Source: a virus. Taken from it: 29,262 nucleotides of DNA. Shown in pieces: positions 8,276-28,938 of the stretch. Where the stretch lies: positions 1-29,262 of the IMG/VR virus record IMGVR_UViG_3300000477_000009, one strand, 5' to 3'. The notes under the pieces are model-generated. The model did not search any database. It had not been told where the DNA came from and saw only the letters and a list, made by a program, of their open reading frames with translations. The position numbers and the translations under genes were made by a program. The first letter of the stretch is position 1, and every line of letters starts with the position of its first letter.

Positions 8276-8286
8276 GAGGTGTAAAC

Positions 8287-10264: not shown

Positions 10265-10276
10265 GGGGGGTATATT

Positions 10277-11065
10277 ATGAAAAATATTAGAAGCCGAGGG
10301 CTCACTGTAGGACAGCTTTTAAAGAGGTTGCAAAATGAAGTAGATGATGTTATACCCGAGGATTGGGTGTTTGATTGGATTGATGAGGGCCTCTTAGAAA
10401 TAGCTACTTACTACGGTGAGCCCAAAAGCTTCATCGTAATAGTAACGGACAAGGAGAACCACAAAGAAGCCCTGTCTGAGTTTATGGATAATCTTTCCGA
10501 CTACAAAGGAGTTTCTGTGGATTGGAGTACGAAGGGTTTAAAAGAGGGGACTAAAAGAGTTGTGGCTGGACCCAGAAGTTTTATCGACTTACCTGATGAC
10601 TTCATCAAAGAGAACGAAGTCGTGAGAGTAGAACATAACATAATAACAAGAGATTACGTTATAAATTCTAACAGACAAATAATGTTTGTTCATCCTGGAG
10701 GATACCAAGTTAATTATCAAAGTTTACCTTGGAATGTTTTCAGAGAAGACGTAGAACTGAGCGAATATTATTTTCCCACCCACTCACACCCAACGGAGCA
10801 GTCTTACGAAGTTAAACATAAAGAACTCTCCTTGCCTATTCATTACTTATTCCACCCCGCATTAATATTGTGGTGTAAACACAAATACTGGGAGAGAGAA
10901 GCCGATGCTTCTCCAGGAGAGGTTCAACTGTCGGAGAATTATTGGCATAAGTTCCACAGAAAAGTAAGGGATACTTCTGTCAAGTTATTAAAGCAAAAGA
11001 AGTACCCCGACATTATTTCTCTCCCTAATTGGGGTGGAGAAGTTCCCACTAATTGGCCTTTCTAG
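10277..11065 (+). CDS. Head-tail adaptor, gp11-like (tail tubular A) protein
   Basis: In podoviruses the adaptor ring attaches under the portal and carries the nozzle. The 262-residue product starts with a typical adaptor pattern, GLTVGQLLKRLQNEV then WVFDWIDEGLLEIA (residues 9-44). Central beta-strands (RSFIDLPDDFIKENEVVRVE) follow, with a YQVNYQSLP element, and then helical LFHPALILWCKHKYWEREAD. This mix of helical bundle and beta-sandwich, together with its place immediately before the large nozzle gene, supports the call. Starts ATG 10277 behind AAGGGGGG. Similarity is by fold pattern, so confidence is moderate. Confidence 0.6.
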   Translation: MKNIRSRGLTVGQLLKRLQNEVDDVIPEDWVFDWIDEGLLEIATYYGEPKSFIVIVTDKENHKEALSEFMDNLSDYKGVSVDWSTKGLKEGTKRVVAGPRSFIDLPDDFIKENEVVRVEHNIITRDYVINSNRQIMFVHPGGYQVNYQSLPWNVFREDVELSEYYFPTHSHPTEQSYEVKHKELSLPIHYLFHPALILWCKHKYWEREADASPGEVQLSENYWHKFHRKVRDTSVKLLKQKKYPDIISLPNWGGEVPTNWPF

Positions 11066-11077
11066 GGGGTATAATAA

Positions 11078-13036
11078 ATGGAAGAGCAGGTTCAGGATGA
11101 ACGTTACCAACCCTTAAAGGTTTATGACTTTTCAAAAGGGTATATGGATGCCTTAGCACCGGAGTATTTACCGGACGAAGCCTCCCCCGATTGTCTTAAT
11201 GTTTTGTGTAGAACTGCGGGAGATTTAAAGAGAAGACCTAGTTTCGACAAGGTGGCCTCTACAGGAGGGGAAGGCATAATTAACTTGTTCCCTTTCTATT
11301 CCGAAGACTTTACCATAATAGGTAAAGGTTTTAATTATTATGCTTTTGAAAAAGAGATTCAAGGAGACTCGGGGGAAGTATCGGGTAGTCTAGACCGAGG
11401 TTTAAGAGAAGAGCTTACTATTGGGTTGGTTTTGGAAGAAGAAGAGTTGGAAGAAGGGGATTACGTCAAAATAACTTCCACTGTCCCCATAAGTTTCTCA
11501 GGTATAGACGAATTGTTCGTTAATTGGATGTGGCTCCACGGGGGAATCGTTATGGAGGATTGGGAGGAAAGTAAGAAAGAATTGGTTGAGGATTTTAAAT
11601 TCCAATTAATAGACTCTGGTGACAATATAGTTAAAGAAGTTTTTTTGGGTTATGACCTTCCAGAGGAGGAAATTAAAGCAACTACTTCTGGAAAAACTTT
11701 AGTGGACGTATCTTCGCTAGAGGGTCTTTATTACGTCCGAATTAAGTTGTTGTGTTCTTATACTCCCGTTAGAAGCCGGATGTTAGCTATCTCTCAGGTA
11801 GCTGCAAAAGGTTTTGATGATAAAAGCCTTTTAGTAGCTTCTGTCAAAGAGAACGGCGAAGAAAAAATTAAATTCTTTAAAAATGAAGTGAAAGACGAAA
11901 ACTTAGAGTCACTGAATATAAACCTTCCCTTAGACGATAAAACTTTTTACCAGTTTGAACAGGCTATAGGAAGTTTGGTAGCTTTTAGCGGAAGGAGCAC
12001 TCCTTGGGTTTGGAACGGTTTGGTCGTTGAGGAGTTGGAGGAAGCCCCTGCTGAGGGTCGAAATCCTGTGTATCACCATGCCAGGCTTTTCGTTAGTACT
12101 CAACCGTCTTTGATAAATTGGTGTGAACCTTATAACCTCTTCAGTTGGCCCGGAGTCAATTATATGTATGTGGGAACTTATGGTGATGGTATCGTCAGTA
12201 TGAGAAGGTTGAGAGATGCACTGGTTATTTTTAAAGACCGTTCTACTTATGTACTAAGAGGAGCCTCTAAGTTAGACTTTCACCTCGAAGAGGTAAGTAC
12301 GTCTTTAGGTTGTGTTGGTCCTCAAGCTGCTTTGTTTTATGGCGGAGGAATAATACTGGTTACACAGAGAGGATTAGAAACCTTCGACGGGGTTAACTTT
12401 GAACCTTTATCTCAAGCTATTCCTCGTTTGTGGGATGGTTTGGTAAAAGAAGAAGACTTAGGTTCTATTGTTCTTTCGGAGAAAGACAGTTTGATATTTA
12501 TGAGTGTTCCTAGTAAAGACTTAGTCTTAGTTTATGATTTAAGAACTGGAGCTATATGGCCCTGGAAAAAGAGTATTACTTGTATGACAAGCTTCATGGA
12601 AGAGACAGGAAACGTTTATTTTTATTCAGGAGGGAAAGAAAACGGGTACATTACTAGTTTGGATAAAGAGGGCGACAAAGAAGTAGTATACCCTGCTTAT
12701 TGGGTATCTAAGCCTTATGGATTAGACGTTCCTAGTTGGTACAAAAAAACCAAAAACCTTTACCTAGAAACTAGTTCGTCCTCCAAAGCCAAAGATAACC
12801 TAGAACTTGTGGTTAATGTTGATAATACTTCTCTAACCTCGGAGGATGAGAAAGAGGTAATTAAAAGGAAAGAAGATGATTATATTACTAAATATCTTTT
12901 AAACCAACCTCGTCCTTGGTGGAGGTATATTTCTTTCAAATTTAACTTTAAAGAAGATTCTGAAGACTTGGTTATAAAGGGTTTGGAGGCTCAAGCTAAG
13001 CTTAAACCGTTATCTAAAGTTAGGGGGGAAGCATAG
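11078..13036 (+). CDS. Tail nozzle / hub protein (gp12 or P22 gp10-like beta-propeller)
   Basis: The nozzle closes the short tail. The 652-residue product has the typical N-terminus FSKGYMDALAPEYLPDEASP then CLNVLCRTAGDLKRRPSFD (residues about 19-55), as in many podovirus nozzle and hub proteins. The propeller part shows WCEPYNLFSWPGVNYMYVG, then LRDALVIFKDRSTYVLRGAS, GCVGPQAALFYGGGIILVTQ and LVYDLRTGAIWPW, which are canonical nozzle motifs. An insertion-like acidic domain occupies about residues 90-240. The gene follows gp11-like with a 12-base gap and is directly abutted (TAGATG) by a small coiled-coil gene. Confidence is good for the nozzle/hub class and low for any finer assignment. Confidence 0.78.
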   Translation: MEEQVQDERYQPLKVYDFSKGYMDALAPEYLPDEASPDCLNVLCRTAGDLKRRPSFDKVASTGGEGIINLFPFYSEDFTIIGKGFNYYAFEKEIQGDSGEVSGSLDRGLREELTIGLVLEEEELEEGDYVKITSTVPISFSGIDELFVNWMWLHGGIVMEDWEESKKELVEDFKFQLIDSGDNIVKEVFLGYDLPEEEIKATTSGKTLVDVSSLEGLYYVRIKLLCSYTPVRSRMLAISQVAAKGFDDKSLLVASVKENGEEKIKFFKNEVKDENLESLNINLPLDDKTFYQFEQAIGSLVAFSGRSTPWVWNGLVVEELEEAPAEGRNPVYHHARLFVSTQPSLINWCEPYNLFSWPGVNYMYVGTYGDGIVSMRRLRDALVIFKDRSTYVLRGASKLDFHLEEVSTSLGCVGPQAALFYGGGIILVTQRGLETFDGVNFEPLSQAIPRLWDGLVKEEDLGSIVLSEKDSLIFMSVPSKDLVLVYDLRTGAIWPWKKSITCMTSFMEETGNVYFYSGGKENGYITSLDKEGDKEVVYPAYWVSKPYGLDVPSWYKKTKNLYLETSSSSKAKDNLELVVNVDNTSLTSEDEKEVIKRKEDDYITKYLLNQPRPWWRYISFKFNFKEDSEDLVIKGLEAQAKLKPLSKVRGEA

Positions 13037-13198: not shown

Positions 13199-13963
13199 AT
13201 GCCTACTAGAAACCGTTATTTAGAGAGGTTGAAAGAGACTCACGACCAGGTTCGGTCTAAACCTCACGGGAGATTAGAAGGGCTAGCAGACAGAGACAGA
13301 ACAGGTCCTGTGGGTATTGTAAGTCCTCCGGTGGAAGGTCGAGGACAACCTTTGACTTCTCGACCTAGAACAACTGAAACTCCTTTGAAGATGCCGGAAC
13401 CGGGGCAAGTTCCTTATGAAGAGACTATGCAAGATTTGCTTAAAGGTATGCCTCGGATAGGAGGGGAACAAATAGAAGAAAGAGCAAGAGCTCATGCTGA
13501 TTTACAAATAGACCCCCAGATAAGAGCTTTACAGGAGCAGAAAGCAGAGGCTAGGGCAAGAGATTTAGACACAGCCATAGCCAGAGGTGTGGGTAGGTCT
13601 GGAGTAGTTGATTGGGCTGACCAGCAGAGACAGAAAGATTTTACTCAACAAGTTGCTGATTTAGAGAGAATGAGAGGGCAGCTGACTCTGGAAGAGGCTT
13701 CTCGTTTGGAAGAACAGGCTTTTCAACAAGGGATGGCAAAATTAGAAGCTATTAAGAGTTTAGCTCAACAGTCTATGCAACAGGATGCTGCACATTGGGA
13801 CCAATGGATGCAGTGGGCTGCTTTTGAAGCACAGGAGACCTTGGATTGGTTTGACCGGTTATATCTAACCCCCGGTCAGAAAGCAGATATTGCTATGGCT
13901 TGGGCCGAACTATTTGGAGAGATGCCGAAGGGAATGGATGATTGGATGAAAGGAGGAAAATAA
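13199..13963 (+). CDS. Probable internal virion (ejection) protein 1
   Basis: The 254-residue product has a basic, Arg/Pro-rich N-terminal part (residues 1-85), then long Ala/Gln/Glu helices (about 95-215), then a Trp-rich end (WDQWMQWAAFEAQETLDWFDR). Such Q/A-rich helical proteins located between nozzle genes and the largest virion gene are usually ejection proteins that form a channel with the DNA. Start ATG 13199 follows GAGGAGGTG. No motif gives an enzyme function, so the call is positional. Confidence 0.5.
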   Translation: MPTRNRYLERLKETHDQVRSKPHGRLEGLADRDRTGPVGIVSPPVEGRGQPLTSRPRTTETPLKMPEPGQVPYEETMQDLLKGMPRIGGEQIEERARAHADLQIDPQIRALQEQKAEARARDLDTAIARGVGRSGVVDWADQQRQKDFTQQVADLERMRGQLTLEEASRLEEQAFQQGMAKLEAIKSLAQQSMQQDAAHWDQWMQWAAFEAQETLDWFDRLYLTPGQKADIAMAWAELFGEMPKGMDDWMKGGK

Positions 13964-13964: not shown

Positions 13965-14822
13965 ATGAGTAAATTAAGAGATATTATGGGAGAGATAGCC
14001 AAACATAGAGCTGTGAAGTCTCTTAGACCCGAGACTGAGCTTGGACCTGACCCCTTCTTTAAGAACGTACTCCCTGAAGAGAAGAGGAAGGTGGGAAGGC
14101 CCCCTATAGGTAGGGAGGACGTGAGAACTCGTATGGTTGGTGTAGAGACTCCCTCTCCTCCTAGGGAAGTCGAGGCTCCTCGTGACCCTGGGGAAAGGGC
14201 TAGGGGAATGGCTGCACAAAGAGAAGGGGTTCCTACTCCTTTTGAGCCTGGTACTCCCACACAACGGAGAATAGAACATGATGATACTATGGCTTTGGAA
14301 AGGGAGAAGATGGCTCTCCAAGAACGGTTGGCTAGGATGGCTGGAGCCGGAGGCGCTGGAGGCGCTCCTGGTGTAGATATGGATGAGCTTGCAGATATGC
14401 CTGGAGACCGTGAAATAATGAGGCCTGCTTTGGAGGAATTAGTAAGAACAGCTGTCGGAGAGGGTAAAACCTACCAGCAAATGAAGAGGATGCCTGAGTT
14501 TGCCAATACTCAAGACGCGCTCATCGACGCAGGGTTTAATAAAGGAGATATAGAGGATTTATCTAAACGAGCTTATGCTAGTATAGCCAATGACCGTGCA
14601 GAATATATAAGAACAGAAAGAGTTCCTCAACTCGGTTTCACAGGAGCAATTTTTGACCGCGATACTTTTAACAATACTTTTAAAATTCTGAGTAACCTGG
14701 TTAGAGGAATGGAACAAGCAGGCTATGAACCCTCTAAACGATTAGAAGAGTTAGCAGGATTAAGGAGAGGAACTGGAGGCCCCGCAGGGGGAGAAGCTCC
14801 CGCCGGAGGGCCCACTAGCTAA
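13965..14822 (+). CDS. Probable internal virion (ejection) protein 2 with AT-hook-like motif
   Basis: The 285-residue product has a disordered Pro/Arg/Glu N-terminal part and a Gly/Ala-rich hinge at about residues 126-133, then a folded helical domain (about 140-265). It ends in a Gly/Pro-rich tail. Residues about 42-48 read KVGRPPI, matching the G-R-P core of AT-hook DNA-binding motifs. This could keep the protein on the packaged DNA, which is inference. The start is only one base after the previous stop, behind AAAGGAGG, so coupling is likely. It precedes the giant gene by 16 bases with GAGGAGGG between. Function is assigned by place and composition. Confidence 0.5.
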   Translation: MSKLRDIMGEIAKHRAVKSLRPETELGPDPFFKNVLPEEKRKVGRPPIGREDVRTRMVGVETPSPPREVEAPRDPGERARGMAAQREGVPTPFEPGTPTQRRIEHDDTMALEREKMALQERLARMAGAGGAGGAPGVDMDELADMPGDREIMRPALEELVRTAVGEGKTYQQMKRMPEFANTQDALIDAGFNKGDIEDLSKRAYASIANDRAEYIRTERVPQLGFTGAIFDRDTFNNTFKILSNLVRGMEQAGYEPSKRLEELAGLRRGTGGPAGGEAPAGGPTS

Positions 14823-14838
14823 TTGAGGAGGGATATGA

Positions 14839-17800
14839 ATGTCGACTAGAAATCCTAGGTTACCTGCTCTTGTGGACAGGTATTTTTCTTTCCAAAGGCT
14901 TAGAAGCTTAGCCGAAGAGGAAGAAGAAAGAAGAAGAGAAGCTTTGGAGGCTATTCCTGACCCCTATGAAAGTCCCTTAGCAGGTATGCAAGATAAAATT
15001 TTACAGAGAGCTACTGTGGAACAAGACCCTCAGTTATTGAGAGCAATGAATATTGTGGAGGAATCTTTGCAGAGTTCTTGGAAAAGAAGAACAGAGGAAG
15101 ATAGGAAGAAAGCTTATGACAGGTTTCAAGAGCTGTCTCAAATACAACAAATTCAAGAGAAAGAAAAAGAAAGGTTTACGGACTTATTAACTACTCCTAC
15201 TACCCCGGAAGTTATACGAGATGCGGAGGAACGTATAGCTTTAACAGACCTCTCTATCCTAGATGAACCAGACGACGAGCATATGGCCGAGATGCGTTCG
15301 CTCTCGGATATAGTTGGACAAATAAAAGCTTTTGCTCTAGGGGAGCGAGGAAAAGCCGCCGTAGAGCAAGTTAAAACTGGGATGGAAAGGATGGCAACAG
15401 AAGAAGAGCTTGAAGAAATAGCTCCTAGAATGGCTGAGTTTGTCGACGAGCCAGAACCTACTGAACTCCCCCCTGAGCCAGAAGAAGAGCCAAAAATGCC
15501 TACAGACTACCCTCTTATGGCAGGTCTCATTGGAAGAGAAGAGATGATTGAAGCTGGTGTAGATATTCCTGAAGATAGACCCATAGACCCCGCAGAAGCG
15601 ATAGAAAGATGGAGAGGAACCTTGTTGGAAGACGAAGAACGAGACGTGCTTGAGGAGTATGGTTTACAGCCTCTTATCTCCGATTATATGTTGTCAAAAA
15701 TATCTGCTACTGGTTGGAATATGATTCCCGGCCGAGCTCCAGACGTGGTGTACGAAAACATAGCTGAAAGGGATAAAGAAATTATACAAGAATACGGAGA
15801 AATTGAAAATGCCCCTTGGGACGTTCGAACGGGAAGAGTAATGGAAGACTCTATTGCGCAAACAATAGGGGCTGTTCCTTTTTACTTAGGGGGACATAAA
15901 GCTATAAGAGCAGGGGTTTCTGCTATTACCGGAGTATCAAAGCTTCCCGAATTGTTAGGAAGAGCTGCAACTCCTGAGCCCCTTGACATGGCTGCTAAAG
16001 CCGCAATAAGAAGAATACTTGAAAGTGGGGGACAGACTGGGGTAAGACTTGGAACCATAAGTAGTATTTTTTCTTCTATACGTAATACAGAGGAAGTCTT
16101 GAGAGGGGAAAAAACTTCTCAAGAAGCTTTGTGGGATATTAGTATGGAAACCACGATGGGTACAGCAACTGGGTTTATTCTGGGCTCTATTTTTAGAGTT
16201 ATACCGGAGGTAGGTATTCGTTTAAAATATGCAACAAAACCGAAAGTAGGAGAAGTAAAACTTGAATATTTCAGACAACCTAAGGATTTACAAGACCTAA
16301 AAAATCAATACAAAGAATTATCAAAACGTTACCACCCTGACAGGGGAGGTACAGAAGCTCAAATGAAGCAAATACATGCAGAAAAGGATTACCTTTTTAA
16401 TAAAATTAGTAGCGAAACGGCCCATAAGACTATGACGGATTGGCAGATAATGCATAAAGAATTGCTAAAAAGAGATTATGAGCAAACAAATATAGGGGTT
16501 TATAAGAATAAGATAACCGGGGAAAAGGTTTACTTAGAGGGGATAACTCCAGAGGGGAAAGTAGTTAGTATTGATAGGCTTATGAAAGACATAGCTAAGA
16601 GGTCCGATATACCTAACCTTACAAAAATGACAAGGGGTGAGATATACCAATATATTACCCAACACATGGTTCCGAGAGCACAACTGGTTCCAGCAAAAGG
16701 AGACTTAGAAACTATTTCTAGGTTACCTTCGTTTATGAGAGGAGACAAACCTATAACCGGGGTTCACGTAGGGGGATATGACCCCTCCTTGTTTAGAGAA
16801 CCTCCTCGTGGTTTGTTAATGGGAAAAGTTGCTGAACCCTCTGTGAAGAGAACAGATCTCTTAGCACAAATAAAAATTCCAGAGACTGCTCGGATAGCTT
16901 CGACCAGTGATAAGTCTAAAATCGTTTTTTCTGAAAAAATCCCCACAACACTAAGAGACCAATTGGCAAAAGCAGGGTTTAAAGGACAAGGAACTGGTAA
17001 GGCTGGGGAAAGAGCCTACATCGCTACTAGAACAGAAGAGAGAGAAGAATTACTAAGAGAAATAGAAAATGTCAGGCAACAGCAGTTAGCAGAAGCTCCT
17101 GTAGAAGAACCCGTTGCTGAGCTCCCGGTAGAAGAACCCGCTCCCGAACCTGTGGTAGAAGAACCTGTCGAACCTCCAGTAGAGGAACCTGTTGTTGAAC
17201 CTCCGGTAGAGGAGCCCCTTTCGAAAGATGAATTAATGCCAAGAGCATACCGGAGGTTAGACGTATTAAACCAAAAGGCGGGTAAAACATTAAGTGAAAA
17301 AGAGAGGGAAGAACTTCGAGAACTCAATGAAGAATCAGGAAGACTACAATACAGGATATATGATTTGAGGCCTAAAGAGGAAGTGGATGCTTTAACTGAG
17401 GAGGAGGCTAAGGAGCTTAAGTCTCTTGAAAACGAGTTGAAAAGAGTTAAAAGAAAAATACGAAATATACAAAGTGATAAGGACAAACTAAACGCAGAAG
17501 AACAAAGAGAAATGGATACCTTAGCAAGAGCTGTGGAAGAGGAGAACCTTGCCCTTATAGATAGTGTGCTAAGAGATAGGCCTAGTATAACTTTTTCAGA
17601 AGGTTCTAGAGTGGAGAAAGCCACAGGAAGTGTAGACAAAGGAACTCTCAAAGCGAGAAGAGGAACCGTAGCTGGGCCTACTTATGAGGACGACAAGGGT
17701 AGAATCCAAGTTCCTGTTATATGGGACCACAAACCGGGTGAAGTGGAACATATAAGATCGGACGCCAAGAGGTTTTACAAGATAGATGAAGAAGCAGTAA

Positions 17801-20800
17801 GACCCTCTCCGGAGGAAGTAAGAAGGGAAGTAGAACCTACTCCTACTACTGCTCCTTCCCCTCCGGAAACCAAAGAAAGGCCTCTTAGAGACTTGGAAGT
17901 AACAAAGACCGTAGGAGAAGACGACGTTAGTATCTCTTTCAGAAAAGGAAGACCCGACCACCGGACAAGAACTGCTTTAAAAGAGACTGGGTTTAGTTTC
18001 GAAAGAACCAGAGAAGGAGAGTTGTGGAGAGCCCCCTTGACTGATGAATCATTGGAAGTTGCGAATAGGGTAGAAGCTAAAGAAACAGAACTGATACCTA
18101 AAGTAGAGGCTCCTGCTGAGGTCGAGGTTAACATAGAACAAGCCAGAGCTAAGAAGGGGTGGGAGATGTCCTTCGAAGAGTTTATGGCTGTGAGAGAGCA
18201 TGATGACCCCGAGACCCACGAAAACGTACATTGGAGAGAACACTTAGATGCCTGGGAAGAGGTTATAGCCACAGCTAGAGACAGAGGAGAAACTATCCCT
18301 AAAAACGTTAGTGAACAACTTAAAGGATTATCTCGAGGAGACATATCCCCTGCCAAAGTAAGTCTAGTAGACCATACTCCCGAAGAACCTTTGCCTGCAG
18401 TTGAAGACCCTCTAGATGTTGTGAGGGTTCCTGCTTCTGCGTTAACCATAAGAGAAGAACCAGAACTTGAGCCCTTAGCTACAGATGAGATTGAGATGTA
18501 CATGGATGAAATATCAGACGCTCTAGGTATGTTTGATATAGAATATGACTACGCCTCGGGAGACTTAATAGTAGACCCTACTACAGACTTGTCAAGGGCT
18601 TTAGGCGAAGTGAGAGAAGCTGTGGAAAACCACCAACAAGGTAACCCTCCCGAAGCTCTTAGAGGAAGAGCTATGGAATTCCAAAGAGACTACATAAGAG
18701 AAGCTCCTGATTTGTATGGAGATGACCCTAATGTTTTAACACAAACTTTGGAATCTTTACAGTCGGAAGTAGATAAGCATGTAGAGGCGCTAAAACCCGA
18801 ACCCAAAAAAGTCAAACCAAAACCCAGGAAACCTAAGAAGAAAGAGCCTGAAGTTAAACCTATGACTGAAGAACAGGTTAAAGAAATTAAACTAAAAGTT
18901 GTGGAAGAGCTGCGTAAGAAAGGGGTTAGCAAAGAAGATAAGAAAGTTATATCAGAAATCTTAGAAAAGTTAACCAAAGCAGCTAAAAAAGGTGAAGTAA
19001 GATTAGATTTTGTTGTGGAAGTAACAAACAAGATGAATACAAAATTAACCAAGGCTGATTTAGAGAAAGCTGGAGTTAGCACAGACGTTAGTAGAGACCC
19101 AAAAGCTTTGGGAGCCGTAATGGTAAACATGGAACCCAACTTACTCTCTGTTAATATGAAGCTGTTACTTAACACTGAGAAACCTATGGCAAGAACCATC
19201 CTCCATGAGTTTGGGCATGTTTGGTCAGAAGTGTGGAGAGCCACAGACCCTGACGGTTATCACCACGCAGTTAGAGAACTAGCTTTAATAGCTAGGGGAG
19301 AAAGAAAGGGTACGGTTTCTCAGAAACAAATTGAGAGAGCAGAAGAGATTCTTGCTGGCATGATGGCTGACTTTGCTATCATGACTGACGACGCTGACTC
19401 TATAGTAAAGAATGCTTTGGGGAACCAAGCTGCTAACCTTAAAAAATGGTTAATAGAAGGAGCAGAAGAATATCCAGACTTCAAGACTGAAATATTCCCC
19501 AACCTACCTAAACCTTTAGTAGAACAAATTGAGAAGTTCTCTAAAGGTGAGTGGTCAAAACTATTCAAGTCCCATAAAGGTAAATTCGACGTGTCTATGA
19601 GGGAGTTTAAAGAGATAGAAGAGAGAGGAAGAGACCACCTTAACGAGACTTATCGTATGTTAGCTCCTCCCTTCTATCCTGCTATTAAGAATGCAATTAA
19701 GAAGATGGCTGACCGTAGAAAAGACAGAAAAATACACAAAGAGGAATTTTACAATACTCTTCATAAATGGATACCCTCCAGTAAAATAGACTCTGACCTT
19801 CGTTGGTCTGGACTTAGGGATTTTCTAAATCGTTATCCAGATACTCATATCCCGGAGAAAGTAGCTCTCTCCGCTGTTGAAGAACCAAAAGTAACTATTC
19901 TTAGGGACATTGTTTCCCAAGAATATTCTAGTTACACCAAACTAGCAGGTCAAGGCAGAGATTATGAGGAAGTCGTGTTTCAGGTTCCTAAGTTCGATAC
20001 AGAAAAAGAAAAGCTTGCAGCAGTACTCCAAGATACCTTGAGTTTCCCAAATAGGGAGGCATTAAGAGAACTTGCTTTTTCTAAGGGTAAACGTCCTCTT
20101 CAACTGACTATTAGAGAAATTATGGATAGATATTTCAAATATGACTTATCCGGATTTGAAGGTATGGAGCAACATAATGAATACCTTAAAATGCATGATT
20201 TGGCTGAAGTTTTAAACCAACTAGACCTTGTGGGACAAATCCACGTAGAAATTCGCTCCCACTTTTTTGGGAGTGCTAAAAGGATAGGGTTCAATTCTTC
20301 GGAATTAGACGAGGAAGGTTCTCCCCTCCACACAGGGATAATTTTAGACCCCAAGGGAGAGGATGTTCTAAGAGCAATAGATATAGCTAAATCTCACTCC
20401 TTCGAGGATAGGTGGGAGGAAATGAGAAAAGAAAGAGTAATGGTGGACCACGGAAGAGCGGGGGCAATATTTACTAAGTTTCAGGATAAAGAAGAAAGAA
20501 TGTTAAGAGAACTTTCTAATAAACCCGAGAACTTAACAATCGAACCTTTATCTGGACGTAGAGCTTTAGTGGTTCATGAAGGTAAAGAGGAAACTATTAC
20601 TTTATTATATAGAATAGGTTATCCAGAACTTGTCTCAGAAAGTGAAGTAAAAAATGAAGTTAAAAAAATTCATAACAGTTTTAGGAAAGACTTGTCAAAA
20701 TTAGTAAGAAATTTAGATACTACTCTCAAAGAAGCAGCAAAATTAGATGATAGCTTAAAAGAAATGTTGCAGGCAGCTGATAAGAAACAAAAAGAAATAT

Positions 20801-23800
20801 TAAAGATGGAAGAGGGAGTATTTGACCCGGAGATAGTAGTTATGAACGGCTTAAACTATGTGAGAGAAAAACTAATAGACATTGTAAACAGGTTACGAGC
20901 AAACAAAGAGCCTATTCCAGACGAGATAGAGTCTTTGGCAGAAATAGTATTTGGAGGGTCAGAATACAATAGGATATTACAAGAGTATACTCCTCACTTT
21001 CAAGATGTGGTGGACCCTGAGTCAATGCCTTCATTTTGGTTTAGGGGAGACCGGGTTGATTTGGAAGACTTAACGGGAACTGCTACTAGGATACATGAGC
21101 TTCAAAGCGACTTACAAGATTTAATAAGAGATACTCTATTTCACTCTGCAACCCTTCCCGACGGTTTCTCTTTGAATAAAGAATCATTTTCGGGGCTTCC
21201 TCCGATGTATATATTAAGGGACTCAAAAGGAAAACCCATAGCCAGTTCAGACGAAAAAAGCAAAGGGAAAGCTTGGTCTGACATATCATCTAGGTTGTCT
21301 TTTCCTATACATAGAATACCTTTCTCTCACAGCTGGCATGAATTTGCCATTAAGTATGCTATTAGAAAAGCTGCATTAGAAGGGGATGACGCTGTATTAT
21401 TTACTACAGGGGAAATTCAAAACTTCAGTGCTATAGGAACATTTGAGGAAAGTGTAGAAGACTTAAAAGAACTCTTAGAGTCTTATAAAGGAAAAGAAGT
21501 AACTTTATACGGAGAAAGAGTTAAAGTATATGACCCTAAAGAAGAACCAGACGTAGATATAAGGGATAAAGTTAGAGCTTTAAGAAACCAACGTCATGTT
21601 CCTGGTTTTGACATTCGGTGGTATATTCAGCGGAAGGATAAGGACCCGGACAGGCCTCTTTATCTTTACGAATTAAATTCTCCTGACCTATACGGAACTC
21701 ATCTTGGCCCAGACCAAGGAGGAGTTACAGTTTGGGAGTGGGACCTAGAAGAACCTTTCTTCGGAGATTCTCAATATGTTAAACAACTGAGAGAGCATTT
21801 CGACGCTTTGGAAGCAGAAGGAAGAGCTACTGAATTAAGCTTAGCAAGTGAACAAGAAGAATTAGTATCCAAAGAGTGGGACGTAGACATAGAAAGGTTA
21901 GATATCCCTAAAGAGATAATAGACCAACTAGGGGTAAAAGAAGTATACGAAGAGTATGATGAAATCTTAGAAGAAAACTATTTGTCAATGAGATTAGGGA
22001 GTACTTGGCCTAGTAAGAGCCATGCAGAGAAGGCGACAGGAGGACCTGTTATACCAGTTAAAACAGGGATACAAGACCATTATTTTATTCCTGTGGAAGT
22101 GAAGTCAAGAGTACGACCTATGACTCCTCAAGAAAAAACAGTTGGCTTGGAAGATTTAGAAAAAGACGTAGCGGTGTGGGCTGTTAGAATAGTAGACAAA
22201 AAAACCGGAGAACGTTACATTGTTCCAGGAACAGCTTCTAGGATAGAGATGATACCTGACAAAAAGATAGCTTTAGAAGGGAGAGACCCCGTTAAAATAT
22301 TCACTGACTATTTACAGCAGACGGGCCCTGAAGGTACTTATAATGAAATAGTAGGAGAAAAAGATGTTCCAGAATTATACAACAGATTAAAAGATACTAT
22401 GGACAAGATAGCTGACGCCCCCGCTCCTTTCGCCGCTACATTCAACCCTAAGATTAAAAAACTAGGAGCACACGGAATAAGGTATGGATATTATAGAAAA
22501 GACGGGACTTATGCTTGGGATAAAGCTCAATACTTTAAGTTCCTGAAAAACTACCTTAAACAATGGGGAGTTAAACTCGAAGACAAGATAAAATATAAGG
22601 GAACCGATGGAACCGTAGACTACCTCCCAGGGTTTTACATTAATGAAAAAATGAAAAACGACGTGTTGTACAAAGGTCAGCCTTTCCATTATTCACTTGA
22701 AGGACAAGACGACAAACGTGCTGAAGTATATTCTCGAATAGCCAAAACTAAACCTGTGGAAGACAAACCCAAGAAAAAGCCTAAGAAACCTAAAGCTAAG
22801 GAAGTTAAGACTGCCCAGGAATTATACAAAAAGTTCCAAGAGAAAGAAAAAGAAGCCAAAGAGGCTCCCGAGAAAGGTTTGAAGCCATTAGGAGAACTAA
22901 AAACTCTAGAGGGTAGGAGGAGAAGGTTAGGGTTTGAACGTAAAGAAGAGTTAAGGTTAGCTATGGAAGCACACCAGATGGGTAAGGAAAAATGGGTGGA
23001 ACACTTTGCTCAGATGGACAAAACACAATTCGACACTTTACACAAGTATGTGAGTCATGACCAAACTCCAGAAGAAAAGTATGAGACTCTTACTCTTAGG
23101 ATACAGAACTTAGACCAAAAAATATACGATGAGATGTGGACCGAAGTTTTCCAGACCCCCGAAGAATGGAAGAAGTTTACTAAGGACCAATTGCAAGAAA
23201 TAAACACCGAAATAAAAGACCTTAAGTATTGGTGGCGTAAGTCTAACTATGGTAAAGGGTTGGAGAAAAGATATAAAGAAGCTTTAAAACAGATAATAGG
23301 AAACGTGGATTGGAGAAAAATATATAAAAGAGAGAAGCACCTAGAAAAAGCTAGGAACCTAGTATCTTACTATGAAACTGAAGTACAACAACCTATTACT
23401 AAGGCTCTTCTCGAAGACCCCGCTCAACTAGATAAGCTGGGAATACATTACGTTCCTGTGTCTCTTATAAAATCTGTGAGTTACCTAGACCAGGTTCCTC
23501 TGTCAGAGTTTGAGTTTGAAGATGTAATAAATATGCTAAGACTTGCTAAACGAACGATACAAACCGACATCATGAAGAAGAGTAAATACCAAATGGGTTT
23601 ACTTAGAGATAGAGAAAAGAACATAAAAGCTTTAACCAAGAATATGCACCTAAACCACACCAACCTTGCCGAGTCGGTTAAAGAGCAGTATAAAAATACT
23701 AACAGAGCTATAGTTACTATTGAACCTAAGAACTATCGTTCCAAGCATGAAAAGAATCTTACTAAAACACATGCTGCTTTGTTAGACCCTTACAATATCA

Positions 23801-26721
23801 TGAGAGCTATAGAAGGTATAGATAAAGGATATATGGAAAAGCTCTATAAAGGGATAGACAAAGGACAAGAAGGCGTTTACAAAGACATGTTTGCAGCTGA
23901 GGATGCAATAAAGCCAGAGATTGATAAAGTAGGAAGAGAAAAAGTTGCTAAGTGGAGTAATTATTTATCAAGAACTGCTACTATTGTAGACGTAGCTGCT
24001 GAACGTATGATGAAAAGAACTCGGAAGGCTCTCAACAAAGGGGAAATTAAAAATGAAAGCCCTAAAGAGTTAGCAAAATTAGAGAAAGAGTTTGAAAAAA
24101 TAGCTAAAGAAGCTAAAGAAGAGGTTATGAAAAACCCCAAACTCAACGCAGATGCTTACGATATTACTAAACTGTTTAGAGACCCCCTGTCTCCCGAGCC
24201 TGGAAAAGTTGTGGAGAAACTAGAACTTTACATGTCAGAGATTATGTCTCTATATCTTATGGGTAGAAGCTGGAAAGGGAAAGAAGTAATTGCCAAGTAC
24301 GGATTGAGGAGAGAAGATAAACCCGTAGACCGTTTCGTTCTATCCTATGCGGACCAAGGACGTTTGTCCGAATGGTTAAGACAAAACCACCCGGATGTTG
24401 TGAAAATAGCGGACAAGATGTTTGACCACGTAAACGAGTATATAAAAGAAAGATTAAATGAAACCTCAATGAGTAGAGAGTTGCAAGAAAAGTTTCTCGA
24501 GAAGTTTTATTGGCCCTTAATACACACAGGAATGTACCAAGACATAGAGGATAGCCTTTGGGAAAGGATAACAGGGTTTGGATTAGACGGAATGACCCAG
24601 CTTGACAAACATACAAAAGACGGGTTAAACCGGGGTTATATGGGCCAAAAAACTTTGGAACATATGTATTTCACTAAAGAAAGAAAGCCCGAGAAAGGTT
24701 CCAAGATGGAAGGGACAGTATTACTCCAAGATGCTTTTAAAAACTTCCACCAATACGTAAAAGACACCGCTGTTTGGGCTAATTTGGTAGAGCCTGTAGA
24801 TGAAGCTAAATATTTGCTGGACCATCCTCACTTTAAAGATGCTTGTAGAGATGCCGACTTAATGCACCTTTACTATTCTTTTAAGAGTTTCATCGGAGAC
24901 TTAGAGGGTAATATGCTAAGACCTGTGGACAGCCTGGAAAAGATAGGTAAGTCTGTTATAAGTAGAATACACTCATCAATTCTAGGAGTTAACCTAGGAG
25001 TTATGTTAAAGCAACCCCTTTCCCTGTTTATGGCTGCAACGGAGTTTGAACATGAGAAATACCTTTGGAAAAACGTAGCAGTATCTAGGAAGAAAAAGAA
25101 ATGGGCTCTTAAAATGTTTACTACGTATTCCGCCCAAGGTCGGTTCAGAGACCAAGGAAAAATGCACAGAGAGATGGGGGAGTTAGGAGAGTCTGCTGAG
25201 GTGAGGAGGTTCTTCTTGGGACAACTACCCAGAATCTCAGTGTTCACCGAAGGGATAAGGGCTTTTGACAGATTTGCTGTGGGAACTATATGGCTAGGAG
25301 TAAGAGACCAAACCATGGTTTTAAGACCAGACCTTGAACCTGATAGTGAAGAATTCTTAAAATACGTATCCGATGTAACTATGGGTATAGTTAACAGAAC
25401 CCAGCCTACTTATACGGTTCATACCAGAAGCGAACTAAACCGAGCTTCTAACTTGTTTACTAGAGGGCTATACCCATTCTCTACTCAGAGAAATAAAAAC
25501 TACAATGTTGGGTGGAGAGCTTGGTTTGAATATCAAAGTGAACTTAAAAGGATTTGGGGTACTCCTGATGGGCTTCCTCCTAAAATAGAATGGGACTCTG
25601 AAGTCAAAGAATGGAGGAATAAAATTGAAAAAGGAAAGAAACTGTGGGGTACTCCCGATGGAAAACCTTGGGACAAACCTGAACCCGGAACACGGGAAAA
25701 AGAAACTTATGATAGGTTAATGGAGCGTTCTCAGAGGTTATACGGAACGTCTTCTGGAGCTCCCCCCGCTCCTCCTCCGGGTAAGCCTCCTAAAGGTTTT
25801 AAAGGGACTCCTAAAGAATGGGAGAAGGAGTATAGAAACAAGGTTAAAAGAGTAAGAAAAGCTCGGAAGGAATTTTTAAGAGCTATGTTCCATTGCTTTT
25901 TCTCTTTGGGGTTAGGTATGTTCTCAGTAGCGGCTATAATGCGAAGGTTTTATGGGACTCAAGCTCCAGAATGGTCTACTCCCGTAAGGATGGCTGTTCA
26001 CGTATTAACCACAGCAGTAGGGTCATTTCCCGGAGGACAGGCTCTTGACACTATAGTTGCTATGGTTGAAAGGGAAGGAACCTTTGGTATAGAAATGGTA
26101 AGCCCTATGTACTCTGCTCTTAACGAGATTTTAGAAGCCCTGGCAGGAGGAACTATAGCCGTTAGTAGGTGGGGTGAAAAATATGAAGACACTGCTAGGC
26201 ACGGAGAAGAAAGGTGGAGAACGGAGATGACCCAACTAGTAGAAACATTATTGGGAGTACTCGGACATTTCTCGGGGATACCTATTCATAACATAAATAG
26301 GCATTCAAGAGCATTGGTGAAACTAATCACTCCTCATTGGATGGACTTCCCTATAGATAACTTCGGAAGAAACATACACCAGAGACATTACTACGAAGAG
26401 ATGTGGAATAGTTTAGCAGAAGGAACTGCAGAGGGTAGAGGAAATGCTAAGAGAGCTATGTATATACTAGCGCATTATTATGGATATGGAATCGGACACG
26501 ACAAAGGAGAAACTCCTCAAGAAACCTACAATAGGGTGTGGAGGGGTATTGAAAGAAGTTACGACGGAAGAAAAGAAGAATTGAAAAAACAGGGGGTGAC
26601 TAAAGAAGACGTTATTAAACTTTGGAGAGAGGTAGGAGACTGGCCCAGTCCACAAGACCCTAATAGATGGAGACCGAAAGAGTGGACCCGAGGAACTATG
26701 CTGAGAGAATTAACTAAGTAA
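14839..26721 (+). CDS. Giant polyvalent virion protein (3,960 aa) with J-domain, metallopeptidase-like and large polyvalent domains
   Basis: Domains visible in order: disordered acidic N-terminus; Gly/Ala/hydrophobic segments at 335-460; J-domain at about 476-525 with HPD 499-501 and flanking KNQYKELSKRY / GGTEAQMKQI; a small aGF/aYIA-type domain at about 690-745; an E-P repeat linker at 752-794; a second small domain at about 1028-1075 (TALKETGFSFER); a K/P linker at 1318-1343; a HEFGH zinc-peptidase-like motif at 1456-1460 with possible third ligand E1502/E1503; a polyvalent domain with HELQSD 2086-2091, PFSHSWHEFAIK 2161-2172 and TTGE 2189-2192, ending near 2620; a long helical region at 2700-3370; an LPD38-like part at about 3375-3570 (RTQPTYT, FSTQRNKNYN); and hydrophobic segments around 3678-3760. 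Such proteins are thought to be packaged and injected to act early in the cell. I could not find N4 vRNAP signatures. The start ATG 14839 follows GAGGAGGG. Confidence 0.85.
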   Translation: MSTRNPRLPALVDRYFSFQRLRSLAEEEEERRREALEAIPDPYESPLAGMQDKILQRATVEQDPQLLRAMNIVEESLQSSWKRRTEEDRKKAYDRFQELSQIQQIQEKEKERFTDLLTTPTTPEVIRDAEERIALTDLSILDEPDDEHMAEMRSLSDIVGQIKAFALGERGKAAVEQVKTGMERMATEEELEEIAPRMAEFVDEPEPTELPPEPEEEPKMPTDYPLMAGLIGREEMIEAGVDIPEDRPIDPAEAIERWRGTLLEDEERDVLEEYGLQPLISDYMLSKISATGWNMIPGRAPDVVYENIAERDKEIIQEYGEIENAPWDVRTGRVMEDSIAQTIGAVPFYLGGHKAIRAGVSAITGVSKLPELLGRAATPEPLDMAAKAAIRRILESGGQTGVRLGTISSIFSSIRNTEEVLRGEKTSQEALWDISMETTMGTATGFILGSIFRVIPEVGIRLKYATKPKVGEVKLEYFRQPKDLQDLKNQYKELSKRYHPDRGGTEAQMKQIHAEKDYLFNKISSETAHKTMTDWQIMHKELLKRDYEQTNIGVYKNKITGEKVYLEGITPEGKVVSIDRLMKDIAKRSDIPNLTKMTRGEIYQYITQHMVPRAQLVPAKGDLETISRLPSFMRGDKPITGVHVGGYDPSLFREPPRGLLMGKVAEPSVKRTDLLAQIKIPETARIASTSDKSKIVFSEKIPTTLRDQLAKAGFKGQGTGKAGERAYIATRTEEREELLREIENVRQQQLAEAPVEEPVAELPVEEPAPEPVVEEPVEPPVEEPVVEPPVEEPLSKDELMPRAYRRLDVLNQKAGKTLSEKEREELRELNEESGRLQYRIYDLRPKEEVDALTEEEAKELKSLENELKRVKRKIRNIQSDKDKLNAEEQREMDTLARAVEEENLALIDSVLRDRPSITFSEGSRVEKATGSVDKGTLKARRGTVAGPTYEDDKGRIQVPVIWDHKPGEVEHIRSDAKRFYKIDEEAVRPSPEEVRREVEPTPTTAPSPPETKERPLRDLEVTKTVGEDDVSISFRKGRPDHRTRTALKETGFSFERTREGELWRAPLTDESLEVANRVEAKETELIPKVEAPAEVEVNIEQARAKKGWEMSFEEFMAVREHDDPETHENVHWREHLDAWEEVIATARDRGETIPKNVSEQLKGLSRGDISPAKVSLVDHTPEEPLPAVEDPLDVVRVPASALTIREEPELEPLATDEIEMYMDEISDALGMFDIEYDYASGDLIVDPTTDLSRALGEVREAVENHQQGNPPEALRGRAMEFQRDYIREAPDLYGDDPNVLTQTLESLQSEVDKHVEALKPEPKKVKPKPRKPKKKEPEVKPMTEEQVKEIKLKVVEELRKKGVSKEDKKVISEILEKLTKAAKKGEVRLDFVVEVTNKMNTKLTKADLEKAGVSTDVSRDPKALGAVMVNMEPNLLSVNMKLLLNTEKPMARTILHEFGHVWSEVWRATDPDGYHHAVRELALIARGERKGTVSQKQIERAEEILAGMMADFAIMTDDADSIVKNALGNQAANLKKWLIEGAEEYPDFKTEIFPNLPKPLVEQIEKFSKGEWSKLFKSHKGKFDVSMREFKEIEERGRDHLNETYRMLAPPFYPAIKNAIKKMADRRKDRKIHKEEFYNTLHKWIPSSKIDSDLRWSGLRDFLNRYPDTHIPEKVALSAVEEPKVTILRDIVSQEYSSYTKLAGQGRDYEEVVFQVPKFDTEKEKLAAVLQDTLSFPNREALRELAFSKGKRPLQLTIREIMDRYFKYDLSGFEGMEQHNEYLKMHDLAEVLNQLDLVGQIHVEIRSHFFGSAKRIGFNSSELDEEGSPLHTGIILDPKGEDVLRAIDIAKSHSFEDRWEEMRKERVMVDHGRAGAIFTKFQDKEERMLRELSNKPENLTIEPLSGRRALVVHEGKEETITLLYRIGYPELVSESEVKNEVKKIHNSFRKDLSKLVRNLDTTLKEAAKLDDSLKEMLQAADKKQKEILKMEEGVFDPEIVVMNGLNYVREKLIDIVNRLRANKEPIPDEIESLAEIVFGGSEYNRILQEYTPHFQDVVDPESMPSFWFRGDRVDLEDLTGTATRIHELQSDLQDLIRDTLFHSATLPDGFSLNKESFSGLPPMYILRDSKGKPIASSDEKSKGKAWSDISSRLSFPIHRIPFSHSWHEFAIKYAIRKAALEGDDAVLFTTGEIQNFSAIGTFEESVEDLKELLESYKGKEVTLYGERVKVYDPKEEPDVDIRDKVRALRNQRHVPGFDIRWYIQRKDKDPDRPLYLYELNSPDLYGTHLGPDQGGVTVWEWDLEEPFFGDSQYVKQLREHFDALEAEGRATELSLASEQEELVSKEWDVDIERLDIPKEIIDQLGVKEVYEEYDEILEENYLSMRLGSTWPSKSHAEKATGGPVIPVKTGIQDHYFIPVEVKSRVRPMTPQEKTVGLEDLEKDVAVWAVRIVDKKTGERYIVPGTASRIEMIPDKKIALEGRDPVKIFTDYLQQTGPEGTYNEIVGEKDVPELYNRLKDTMDKIADAPAPFAATFNPKIKKLGAHGIRYGYYRKDGTYAWDKAQYFKFLKNYLKQWGVKLEDKIKYKGTDGTVDYLPGFYINEKMKNDVLYKGQPFHYSLEGQDDKRAEVYSRIAKTKPVEDKPKKKPKKPKAKEVKTAQELYKKFQEKEKEAKEAPEKGLKPLGELKTLEGRRRRLGFERKEELRLAMEAHQMGKEKWVEHFAQMDKTQFDTLHKYVSHDQTPEEKYETLTLRIQNLDQKIYDEMWTEVFQTPEEWKKFTKDQLQEINTEIKDLKYWWRKSNYGKGLEKRYKEALKQIIGNVDWRKIYKREKHLEKARNLVSYYETEVQQPITKALLEDPAQLDKLGIHYVPVSLIKSVSYLDQVPLSEFEFEDVINMLRLAKRTIQTDIMKKSKYQMGLLRDREKNIKALTKNMHLNHTNLAESVKEQYKNTNRAIVTIEPKNYRSKHEKNLTKTHAALLDPYNIMRAIEGIDKGYMEKLYKGIDKGQEGVYKDMFAAEDAIKPEIDKVGREKVAKWSNYLSRTATIVDVAAERMMKRTRKALNKGEIKNESPKELAKLEKEFEKIAKEAKEEVMKNPKLNADAYDITKLFRDPLSPEPGKVVEKLELYMSEIMSLYLMGRSWKGKEVIAKYGLRREDKPVDRFVLSYADQGRLSEWLRQNHPDVVKIADKMFDHVNEYIKERLNETSMSRELQEKFLEKFYWPLIHTGMYQDIEDSLWERITGFGLDGMTQLDKHTKDGLNRGYMGQKTLEHMYFTKERKPEKGSKMEGTVLLQDAFKNFHQYVKDTAVWANLVEPVDEAKYLLDHPHFKDACRDADLMHLYYSFKSFIGDLEGNMLRPVDSLEKIGKSVISRIHSSILGVNLGVMLKQPLSLFMAATEFEHEKYLWKNVAVSRKKKKWALKMFTTYSAQGRFRDQGKMHREMGELGESAEVRRFFLGQLPRISVFTEGIRAFDRFAVGTIWLGVRDQTMVLRPDLEPDSEEFLKYVSDVTMGIVNRTQPTYTVHTRSELNRASNLFTRGLYPFSTQRNKNYNVGWRAWFEYQSELKRIWGTPDGLPPKIEWDSEVKEWRNKIEKGKKLWGTPDGKPWDKPEPGTREKETYDRLMERSQRLYGTSSGAPPAPPPGKPPKGFKGTPKEWEKEYRNKVKRVRKARKEFLRAMFHCFFSLGLGMFSVAAIMRRFYGTQAPEWSTPVRMAVHVLTTAVGSFPGGQALDTIVAMVEREGTFGIEMVSPMYSALNEILEALAGGTIAVSRWGEKYEDTARHGEERWRTEMTQLVETLLGVLGHFSGIPIHNINRHSRALVKLITPHWMDFPIDNFGRNIHQRHYYEEMWNSLAEGTAEGRGNAKRAMYILAHYYGYGIGHDKGETPQETYNRVWRGIERSYDGRKEELKKQGVTKEDVIKLWREVGDWPSPQDPNRWRPKEWTRGTMLRELTK

Positions 26722-26734: not shown

Positions 26735-26938
26735 ATGGACCTAGATATTTTCGGGGATTTTATTGCCCAAGTGGGTTTTCCAGTCTTCGTAGCTATATTC
26801 ATGCTATCAAGACTGGAACCCACAATCAAAGAGTTGAATAAGACTATAACCGTACTCATTACTGTGGTAGCCCAACAAAATGGAATCTCAGTAGACCAGG
26901 CTGAAAAGATTGTGGGAAAGAAGAACGGGGGGAATTAA
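26735..26938 (+). CDS. YvrJ-family small membrane (holin-like) protein
   Basis: The 67-residue product has one membrane segment (about residues 8-25, including QVGFPVFVAIFMLSRLE) and then a polar helix (IKELNKTITVLITVV). The pattern VGFP...hydrophobic...R-x-E-x-x-I-x-x-L is that of the YvrJ family of Bacillota and their phages, often next to lysis genes. ATG 26735 has AAGGAG about 9 bases upstream. The stop lies one base before the amidase start. It is probably a holin or holin partner, which is inference from place; YvrJ function itself is not established. Confidence 0.7.
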   Translation: MDLDIFGDFIAQVGFPVFVAIFMLSRLEPTIKELNKTITVLITVVAQQNGISVDQAEKIVGKKNGGN

Positions 26939-26939
26939 A

Positions 26940-27806
26940 ATGGGTATATATAATGGAAGTTATCCCACTAAAAACTTTGGATACCCAAAAGGAACCCAAG
27001 GTAGAAATGGGCATAGTATTGTAGGAGTAGGCGTTCATATAAGTGGAGCTAGATGGGCAAGCAACCTTAGTTGGATTCAAAACCCTTCTAGCAATGCTTC
27101 CTACAATTGTATTGTGAGAAGGGCCGGGAGCAAAATGTTATTGGTTCCAGAACGTAATGCTGCTTACTCCCACGGTCGTGTTAACAGGCCCTCTTGGCCC
27201 TTGTTAAAGTCTGGTGTAAACCCCAATTTATATACCCTATCTATAGCTAGGACGGGGAGTAATCAGAACGAGTGGACCGAAAAACAAATGGACAGTACTG
27301 TAGAAGTTATTATGTATTGGAGTGAAAAATATGGGTTCCCGCCTAGGTGGCCTTACGTTTTTGGTCACTTTCACATTGACTCGGTTAACAGAGCTTATTG
27401 TCCGGGGGAAGAGTTTTTTGAGGAGCTTTTAAAAAGGTTAGAACGAGAAGAGATTAAGAAGGAGAAAAAGATTATTGAGGAGGATGATGAGGATATGGCT
27501 AGAAGAAACTGGGTCCCTATAACCGGGGACTGGGATGGTAGCGGAAAAACAAGAGTAGGTTTCTACAGAAGAGAAGATGCAAAAGTTTTTCTCAACACTT
27601 CTAACACTGGGGGGAATGCTGACATTGAATACTATTTAGGTCCTGCTGGTAATGAATTCGACGTTTTAGTCGGGGATTGGGACGGAGACGGGAAAGACGA
27701 AGTAGGTCTTTACGACCCTGAAACAGACATGTGGTATTTACGACATGAACATGCCGGGGGCCATGCTGACGAAGAATTCCGGTTTGGAGGAAAAAGACAT
27801 GGATAA
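26940..27806 (+). CDS. Endolysin: N-acetylmuramoyl-L-alanine amidase with two FG-GAP/VCBS-like repeats
   Basis: The enzyme cuts the bond between N-acetylmuramic acid and L-alanine in peptidoglycan. I start at ATG 26940 (behind GGGGGGA), not at the upstream in-frame TTG 26910. In 288 residues, an Amidase_2 domain spans about 1-160 with probable zinc ligands H33 (GVHIS), H143 (FGHFH) and C154 (AYCPG). A charged linker (165-188) leads to two 49-residue repeats beginning GDWDGSGKTRVG (196) and GDWDGDGKDEVG (245), with D-x-D-G-D-G calcium-loop character, known from FG-GAP/VCBS-type surface proteins. These probably bind the wall or calcium, which is inference. A third repeat seems cut short at the C-terminus. 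There is no signal peptide, so export needs a holin. A possible internal start lies at 27495. Confidence 0.9.
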   Translation: MGIYNGSYPTKNFGYPKGTQGRNGHSIVGVGVHISGARWASNLSWIQNPSSNASYNCIVRRAGSKMLLVPERNAAYSHGRVNRPSWPLLKSGVNPNLYTLSIARTGSNQNEWTEKQMDSTVEVIMYWSEKYGFPPRWPYVFGHFHIDSVNRAYCPGEEFFEELLKRLEREEIKKEKKIIEEDDEDMARRNWVPITGDWDGSGKTRVGFYRREDAKVFLNTSNTGGNADIEYYLGPAGNEFDVLVGDWDGDGKDEVGLYDPETDMWYLRHEHAGGHADEEFRFGGKRHG

Positions 27807-28036: not shown

Positions 28037-28059
28037 GGGGTTATTCCCCTACCCTTTTT
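28031..28059. terminator. Bidirectional rho-independent terminator between convergent genes
   Basis: GGGTAGGGG (28031-28039) and CCCCTACCC (28046-28054) form a perfect 9-bp stem with a 6-base loop, followed by TTTTT. On the other strand the stem is followed by AATATTTTTT, so it can also stop leftward transcripts. The holin stop TAG (28034-28036) is in the stem and the stop of the - strand gene (28041-28043) is in the loop. Confidence 0.9.
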
Positions 28060-28577
28060 ACTAATACTTTCCTGCTTCTTACTCCCCATTCTTGAGCTTG
28101 TTGTTTTGAATGGGTAGCTACATCTATATGCCCCGTTCCAACCCTCCCCCCTCTATCGTTTACTATTCTTCTTCCTATCCCCTCAATATATACCACATCT
28201 CCGAAACTTAAGTCCGGACCGGCAGCTACTGTATCTCCGGGTATGACTTTGTCTCCCGAAGCTGTGATACTAGGGTCTCCCGAATAATCCCAGCCCGGGA
28301 TAGCCTCCTCGCATAGAGGAGCATATTTAGTTATTTTATAGTATCCGAGTTCGAGAGTATCTATTAATTTATTTATAGTGTCCTTTAAAGCGTCTAGCTC
28401 CTTCTCTAGTTCTTTGTTGTTATCCTCTATATGTTCGACCTTATGTTCGTAATATCTAATTTCTTCTTTTAACTCATCATTTTTACTGTCCAATAAGCTT
28501 ATCTTTATAACCAACGCAATAAAGATAGCTCCTAATAACAATGCACAAACAACAGGTTCAAGGTGGTGGCTCTTCAT
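28041..28577 (-). CDS. Membrane-anchored 3D-domain protein (putative peptidoglycan lytic transglycosylase)
   Basis: In 178 residues there is a membrane anchor at about 9-28 (VVCALLLGAIFIALVIKISL), a coiled coil at 30-72 with regular E/K/L heptads (NKELEKELDALKDTINKL), and a 3D domain at 79-176. The three domain-defining aspartates are D122 (AAGPD), D141 (VNDRGG) and D152 (HIDVAT). Family members with this double-psi beta-barrel (YabE/YocH/MltA type) cleave peptidoglycan or are related to such enzymes. The N-terminus is typical of a membrane anchor, with the enzyme domain outside. It is read from the - strand, facing the endolysin and holin, so it is not in their operon. Its ribosome site is AAGGAGG before ATG 28577. 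Confidence 0.85.
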   Translation of the reverse strand: MKSHHLEPVVCALLLGAIFIALVIKISLLDSKNDELKEEIRYYEHKVEHIEDNNKELEKELDALKDTINKLIDTLELGYYKITKYAPLCEEAIPGWDYSGDPSITASGDKVIPGDTVAAGPDLSFGDVVYIEGIGRRIVNDRGGRVGTGHIDVATHSKQQAQEWGVRSRKVLVKRVGE

Positions 28578-28581
28578 AGAG

Positions 28582-28938
28582 TTATACCTCCTTCTTGTTC
28601 CAGGGCTTAAAGTTTATAATCTTTTTAAACAGCGTAGTAACATCTCCGTCAAAACATATAGCCCTGTCATCTACCGTAACTATTGCAGGGGGTTTTTCTC
28701 CCGTAACTCTATCCACCACAATATCGTGCTTATCCAAATAACGTTGTATTGCTTCTATCCCCCCTTCTTGGTAGCACCTAGTAGAAACTACCACAACCTT
28801 GTAACCCGCTATTCTCAACTCTTCTATCACATCTCTTATGCCGGTAACCGGGGGGTCTGGGATATTTGTTACCCCTTTCCATCCGCTTTCATAAGAGTGA
28901 ATCACTCCGTCGAAATCGAATATAACTGTAGGTTCCAT
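28582..28938 (-). CDS. Small HAD-superfamily phosphatase
   Basis: This 118-residue protein carries HAD motif I as FDFDGVIHSY (D8, D10), motif II in VVVVSTR (S52/T53), K82 (GEKPP) and a motif III-like DD at D90-D91 (VTVDDRAICFDG). The enzymes of this class remove phosphate from nucleotides, polynucleotide 3' ends or small metabolites; the phage substrate cannot be read from the sequence. The cap domain is minimal, so a large or exposed substrate is possible. The gene is 3 bases after the preceding - strand gene and 4 bases before the 3D-domain gene, so they form one leftward operon. Ribosome site GAGGAGG overlaps the end of the upstream gene. Confidence 0.8.
   Translation of the reverse strand: MEPTVIFDFDGVIHSYESGWKGVTNIPDPPVTGIRDVIEELRIAGYKVVVVSTRCYQEGGIEAIQRYLDKHDIVVDRVTGEKPPAIVTVDDRAICFDGDVTTLFKKIINFKPWNKKEV

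Follow-up and report, generated by a model that had tools for sequence, protein, structure and literature searches.

The locus and its genes

The DNA analysed here is an IMG/VR record of 29,262 bp, classed as linear and probably a fragment of a larger genome, which we refer to as the window. A single intact open reading frame at 14839-26721 (+) runs from an ATG through 3,960 codons with zero internal stops and takes up 11,883 of the 29,262 bp (40.6%, close to the 41% originally estimated). A strong ribosome-binding site lies immediately 5' of this frame, GC content by codon position is of the coding type along its entire length, and the probability that the frame would stay open by chance is about e^-286. 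The absence of stops, the ribosome-binding site and the coding-type GC pattern bear out the original prediction of a single 3,960-residue gene. The genes surrounding it are as follows:

2904-3434 (+): terminase small subunit (TerS), Sf6-like (E 1.4e-4, below the cut-off)
3373-4926 (+): terminase large subunit (TerL; profile match)
5177-7348 (+): P22-type portal (profile match)
8761-9759 (+): major capsid protein (MCP), N4-gp56 family (TIGR04387)
11078-13036 (+): tail nozzle / P22 gp10-like protein (weak profile hits)
13199-13963 (+): 254-aa cysteine-free protein, probable first ejection protein (53% identity with G001, the nearest relative)
13965-14822 (+): 285-aa cysteine-free protein, probable second ejection protein
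14825-14832 (+): ribosome-binding site GAGGAGGG (printed sequence)
14839-26721 (+): giant polyvalent-type protein, 3,960 aa (ORF and codon pattern)
26735-26938 (+): holin-like protein, first lysis gene
26910-27806 (+): amidase endolysin (profile match)

The giant gene is thus the final virion gene, directly ahead of the lysis genes and preceded by TerS, TerL, portal, MCP, nozzle and two small genes. This agrees with the proposed placement in the virion gene block, with TerL, portal and MCP upstream and holin and amidase downstream. The proposed N4-type capsid holds for the MCP, which matches TIGR04387 with 238 bits (cut-off 60), while the portal is instead of the P22 type. Judging from gene place, a scaffold is probably encoded among the genes upstream of the MCP. 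Besides the portal type, two further aspects had been overlooked: the two small preceding genes belong to the same set as the giant, and an entire clade shares this gene order, so that the giant is no singular oddity. The same slot, last virion gene ahead of holin and endolysin, recurs together with small preceding genes in the window, in Paenibacillus phage API480 and in other relatives.

Several further features were observed in the window. Three 153-bp direct repeats at 5-472 encode a beta-propeller-like repeat (VLLASGSxDNDIRLFDITDTEDI), probably a piece of a tail or adhesin protein truncated at the contig end, and a Pfam PTR phage tail repeat protein with a 54-bp tandem repeat at 1510-2361 is probably a tail fibre. 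The gene at 10277-11065 has two adjacent matches in G001 (L011; 65% and 31%), likely reflecting a tandem duplication in G001. On the minus strand, 28041-28938 encodes a small HAD hydrolase and a 3D-domain cell-wall protein with a coiled coil (spanin-like).

Domains of the giant protein and its relatives

Searches of the giant against Pfam and NCBIfam gave zero matches above cut-off, and tblastn against annotated phages returned no match for the N-terminal 2,000 aa and one gut fragment only beyond them. The stretches aa 530-1360, 1500-2050 and 2700-3130 yielded no informative relative in this analysis. The chain contains long charged stretches and the following features:

16228-16431 (+): J-domain core with HPD motif, aa 464-531 (phrog_15863)
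17092-17217 (+): Pro/Glu/Val-rich linker repeat, period 27 bp
18934-19338 (+): zincin-like metallopeptidase region, aa 1366-1500 (weak E, motif aligned)
19204-19218 (+): HEFGH motif, residue 1456
21076-21423 (+): QSD/TTGE domain, first part, aa 2080-2195
21424-22527 (+): unmatched insertion within the QSD domain, aa 2196-2563
22528-22692 (+): QSD/TTGE domain, second part, aa 2564-2618 (KQWGV...LYKGQPF)
24226-25545 (+): conserved helical C-terminal module, aa 3130-3569
25882-25941 (+): hydrophobic segment, aa 3682-3701

The J-domain, metallopeptidase-like motif and QSD/TTGE domain named in the original prediction were all recovered. The HPD loop ('YHPDRGG') and helices II/III of a J-domain are present in a core that matches phrog_15863 (E 7e-8), with Pfam DnaJ reaching only E 0.018, below the cut-off; the sub-significant PDB matches of this region are nearly all J-domains. 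The HEFGH motif at residue 1456 lines up with the HExxH of the clade, albeit at a weak E of 0.002 against the clade profile, and HExxH was found in 19 of 19 giants. A second HExxH at 1127 is probably due to chance, since the nearest relative shares the stretch 796-1176 but carries no HExxH there.

For the QSD domain, we built a profile from about 80 homologues taken from viral contigs (L242-L321), which matches the giant at aa 2148-2195 (E 2.9e-11) and aa 2564-2618 (E 2.6e-6). Because both parts match in the correct order and a reversed-sequence control was negative, we consider this a single domain interrupted by about 370 aa. Its consensus reads EIQSDWHQxGRKxGY ... APFKxxWHELxLKRxLxxAAExGYDxxAWTxG ... 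GxPxF, and the domain is present in at least 494 viral-contig stretches in one scan, with no match to Pfam in this analysis. An AlphaFold model of the homologue L242 (pLDDT 79, pTM 0.70) has a best PDB match at a non-significant E of 0.26, and about 14 of the first 50 matches are GNAT folds, a lead towards a possible GNAT-like fold.

The giant's C-terminal part defines a widespread clade. We gathered relatives' contigs via the MCP and built a profile from the C-terminal 277 positions of four members, two of which (the window and G002) match by construction. Of 49 records, nearly all selected through the MCP, this module profile matches 19, the window among them, and the matching frame is always 2681-4670 aa long; of 25 Clostridia genomes, likewise selected through the MCP, it matches 9, with frames of 2567-4008 aa. 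Among the contigs and Clostridia prophages found via either MCP or module, the giants are mostly 2.5-4.7 kaa long and occupy the same place; two shorter relatives, of 1,528 and 1,788 aa, emerged from further scans. The latter (L211) is the closest over the module, with 30% identity over 404 columns; by eye, the L211 protein (6158-11524), alone among the relatives, has an N-terminal stretch reminiscent of the lytic transglycosylase of T7 gp16. Common to the clade giants are the helical C-terminal module and HExxH, and within the module V3388, Q3392, D3477, T3521-Q3522, R3535 and F3547 are near-invariant. Its AlphaFold model is helical and of only moderate quality (pLDDT 60, pTM 0.40) and found no match in the PDB; in structure it comes closest to phage proteins that carry the names MuF_C, PolyVal ART and 'Nuclease' (E 1.8e-9 or weaker). 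The module is not LPD38 (PF18857), a domain that is present in gp20 of Bacillus phage Page (E 2.6e-30) and was not found in the window or the other relatives tested. Of the hydrophobic C-terminal segments predicted in the plural, one (aa 3682-3701) passes the threshold.

The rest of the chain varies. In 23 clade members (giants and shorter relatives), Pfam detects ART-PolyVal in 12, and also PBECR3/5, MuF_C, LPD3, LPD23, M23, SNF2/ResIII, Eco57I and GNAT, a set that corresponds to the vocabulary of polyvalent proteins (PMC5512222). LPD3 was sought in the window and not found, nor were the ART and PBECR enzyme domains of the relatives detected in its giant. Between the window and G001, MCP, TerL and portal are 87%, 76% and 70% identical, whereas the two giants align in patches only (aa 43-222 at 37%, aa 796-1176 at 33%), pointing to fast divergence. 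The first 1,411 aa of the G001 giant contain no HPD, HExxH or QSD; since that contig ends ahead of the later regions, this demonstrates turnover for the J-domain only. The presence of J-like, zincin-like and QSD domains in one chain, together with ART, PBECR and SNF2 in relatives, supports the assignment to the polyvalent class, with several unrelated effector or enzymatic domains joined in a protein encoded among virion genes.

Cysteine depletion and comparison with N4

The giant and its two small neighbours are strikingly poor in cysteine. The giant has 2 cysteines over its 3,960 aa, and its two preceding genes have 0 in 539, giving 2 in 4,499 for the trio as compared with 24 in 4,530 for the remaining genes of the window (Poisson P ~1e-8). 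N4 gp50, gp51 and gp52, which are known ejection proteins (PMC12633501), contain 0 cysteines in 4,294 aa. The same holds for API480 gp14-16 (L013 10649-17459; 0 in 2,262) and Page gp18-20 (L012 17622-24825; 0 in 2,342), two sets from cultured phages that infect Gram-positive bacteria and whose sequences mark them as probably ejected. The upstream neighbours of 12 other giants have 2 cysteines in 4,881 aa, and the giants pooled with the Page and API480 proteins 116 in 72,158, against 1.34% in the relatives' TerL. Because some giants reach 15 cysteines, and single short cysteine-free proteins are uninformative, we regard this depletion as supportive rather than as proof; in a short protein the lack of cysteine is no specific sign, as the N4 MCP and the Page TerL are cysteine-free too. 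If the interpretation is right, a cysteine-free trio would offer a simple way to recognise ejection proteins from sequence, one that fits the three known from N4.

The proposed likeness to N4 in gene place is confirmed: the N4 order is portal, MCP, gp52, gp51 and the giant gp50. Like the window giant, gp50 (3500 aa) lies after the MCP, carries HExxH and has two smaller cysteine-free partners, being itself free of cysteine. Unlike gp50, the window giant lacks the T7-like single-subunit polymerase core of the N4 virion RNA polymerase (vRNAP), and the two have no detectable similarity anywhere. A profile from five schitovirus vRNAP cores, which scores held-out Vibrio and Litunavirus polymerases at 106-121 bits, stays below zero on the giant and all relatives tested. 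An N4-type RNA polymerase in the giant is thereby rejected, in line with the earlier observation that no polymerase motif is visible. Likewise, the C-terminal module does not correspond to the N4 CTD (hhalign probability 0.3%, with N4 entered as a single sequence; controls 99.9-100%). Since this 29-kb fragment includes no replication or transcription module, the genome may encode a polymerase elsewhere. This phage may nonetheless follow an early takeover strategy different from that of N4.

A proposed role in protein delivery

Our preferred reading, to which we give a probability of about 0.75 from sequence comparison, is that the giant is a polyvalent ejection protein that joins a conserved delivery module to swappable host-acting domains. 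The protein would be made late and enter the capsid together with the two small ejection proteins, and would then be threaded, largely unfolded, through the short tail alongside the genome; such passage has been proposed for the N4 vRNAP (PMC12633501). The clade-shared C-terminal helical module would serve packaging and/or envelope crossing. After entry, the zincin could cleave the chain and free the middle domains, a form of processing proposed for polyvalent proteins (PMC5512222), whereupon the J-domain, QSD and unmatched regions might target proteins or defences of the host during the first minutes of infection. Besides the limits of the cysteine signal and the failure to detect the relatives' ART and PBECR domains in this giant, two points count against this reading: beyond its motif the metallopeptidase region matches only weakly, and the relatives' hosts are Bacillus, Paenibacillus and Clostridia, whereas dedicated ejection proteins have mainly been described from Gram-negative hosts (PMC8954989).

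The giant could alternatively be purely structural, an overgrown gp16-like channel or pilot whose length serves DNA translocation and whose domains are decayed or non-catalytic. That the C-terminal module alone is conserved clade-wide, that few catalytic domains are detectable in the giant's middle and that its charged stretches are long would all fit. We nevertheless consider this unlikely, given that recognisable ART, PBECR, SNF2 and methylase domains occupy the variable part in relatives, that conflict would be expected to produce just such an exchange of domains, and that the HPD and HExxH motifs are intact in the window giant. Its location beside the lysis cassette would also suit a non-packaged late protein acting inside the infected cell, for example in lysis or assembly, an explanation made quite improbable by the constant position after small cysteine-free virion-type genes, by the N4-like cysteine depletion and by the tendency of phage polyvalent proteins to adjoin virion genes (PMC5512222). 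An N4-type virion RNA polymerase so divergent that its recognisable motifs are lost, as might be suspected from the N4-family capsid, the shared gene place, the similar length and an HExxH also present in N4 gp50 (PMC12633501), is nearly refuted by the vRNAP profile and N4 CTD comparisons described above.

A polyvalent ejection protein would be of a general kind already known. Polyvalent proteins as described by Iyer et al. (2017; PMC5512222) are likewise giant multidomain chains with an HExxH zincin encoded in the virion block, and their domain types (ART-PolyVal, PBECR, LPD3/23, MuF_C, SNF2, methylase) occur in members of our clade; the window giant differs in that its detectable domains are only J-like, zincin-like and QSD, and the terms 'QSD', 'J domain' and 'DnaJ' are absent from the main text of that paper. 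The Clostridium clostridioforme podovirus prophages LM41phi1 and LM41phi4 have a single 8-kb ORF at the 3' end that was likened to large polyvalent proteins (LPD3) (PMC11318856); at ~2.7 kaa these are shorter than the 3,960 aa of the window giant, and the comparison with it is by size and gene place. Page gp20 (1679 aa) and API480 gp16 (1631 aa) accompany a related MCP, lie in the same place before the holin and are cysteine-free, but their C-termini have no detectable homology to the window's module. T7 gp16 and P22 gp16 are, as the giant would be, the last and largest of three podovirus ejection genes; gp16-type proteins span 609-1337 aa in a published survey (PMC8954989), and we found no sequence match between either and the giant. 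As far as the literature and libraries compared show, what is new is the window giant itself, the module that runs through the clade together with the giants carrying it, the cysteine mark of the trio and the widespread QSD domain, which lacks a Pfam match.

As a tentative generalization, to which we assign somewhat less than even odds, podoviruses of Bacillota with an N4-type capsid and a P22-type portal may have turned the slot of the ejected N4 giant into a modular delivery vehicle, in which a conserved C-terminal transport module and a zincin accompany swapped sets of host-takeover or anti-defence domains, so that the giant can become unrecognisable while the capsid remains 87% identical. 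Our findings draw attention to the podoviruses of Gram-positive relatives, whose ejection machinery is poorly known and in which the cysteine mark could be tested on the cultured phages Page and API480, and to QSD as a phage domain. If the proposed role is correct, these giants would be natural protein-delivery chains, in which a fixed C-terminal part carries thousands of variable residues into bacteria.
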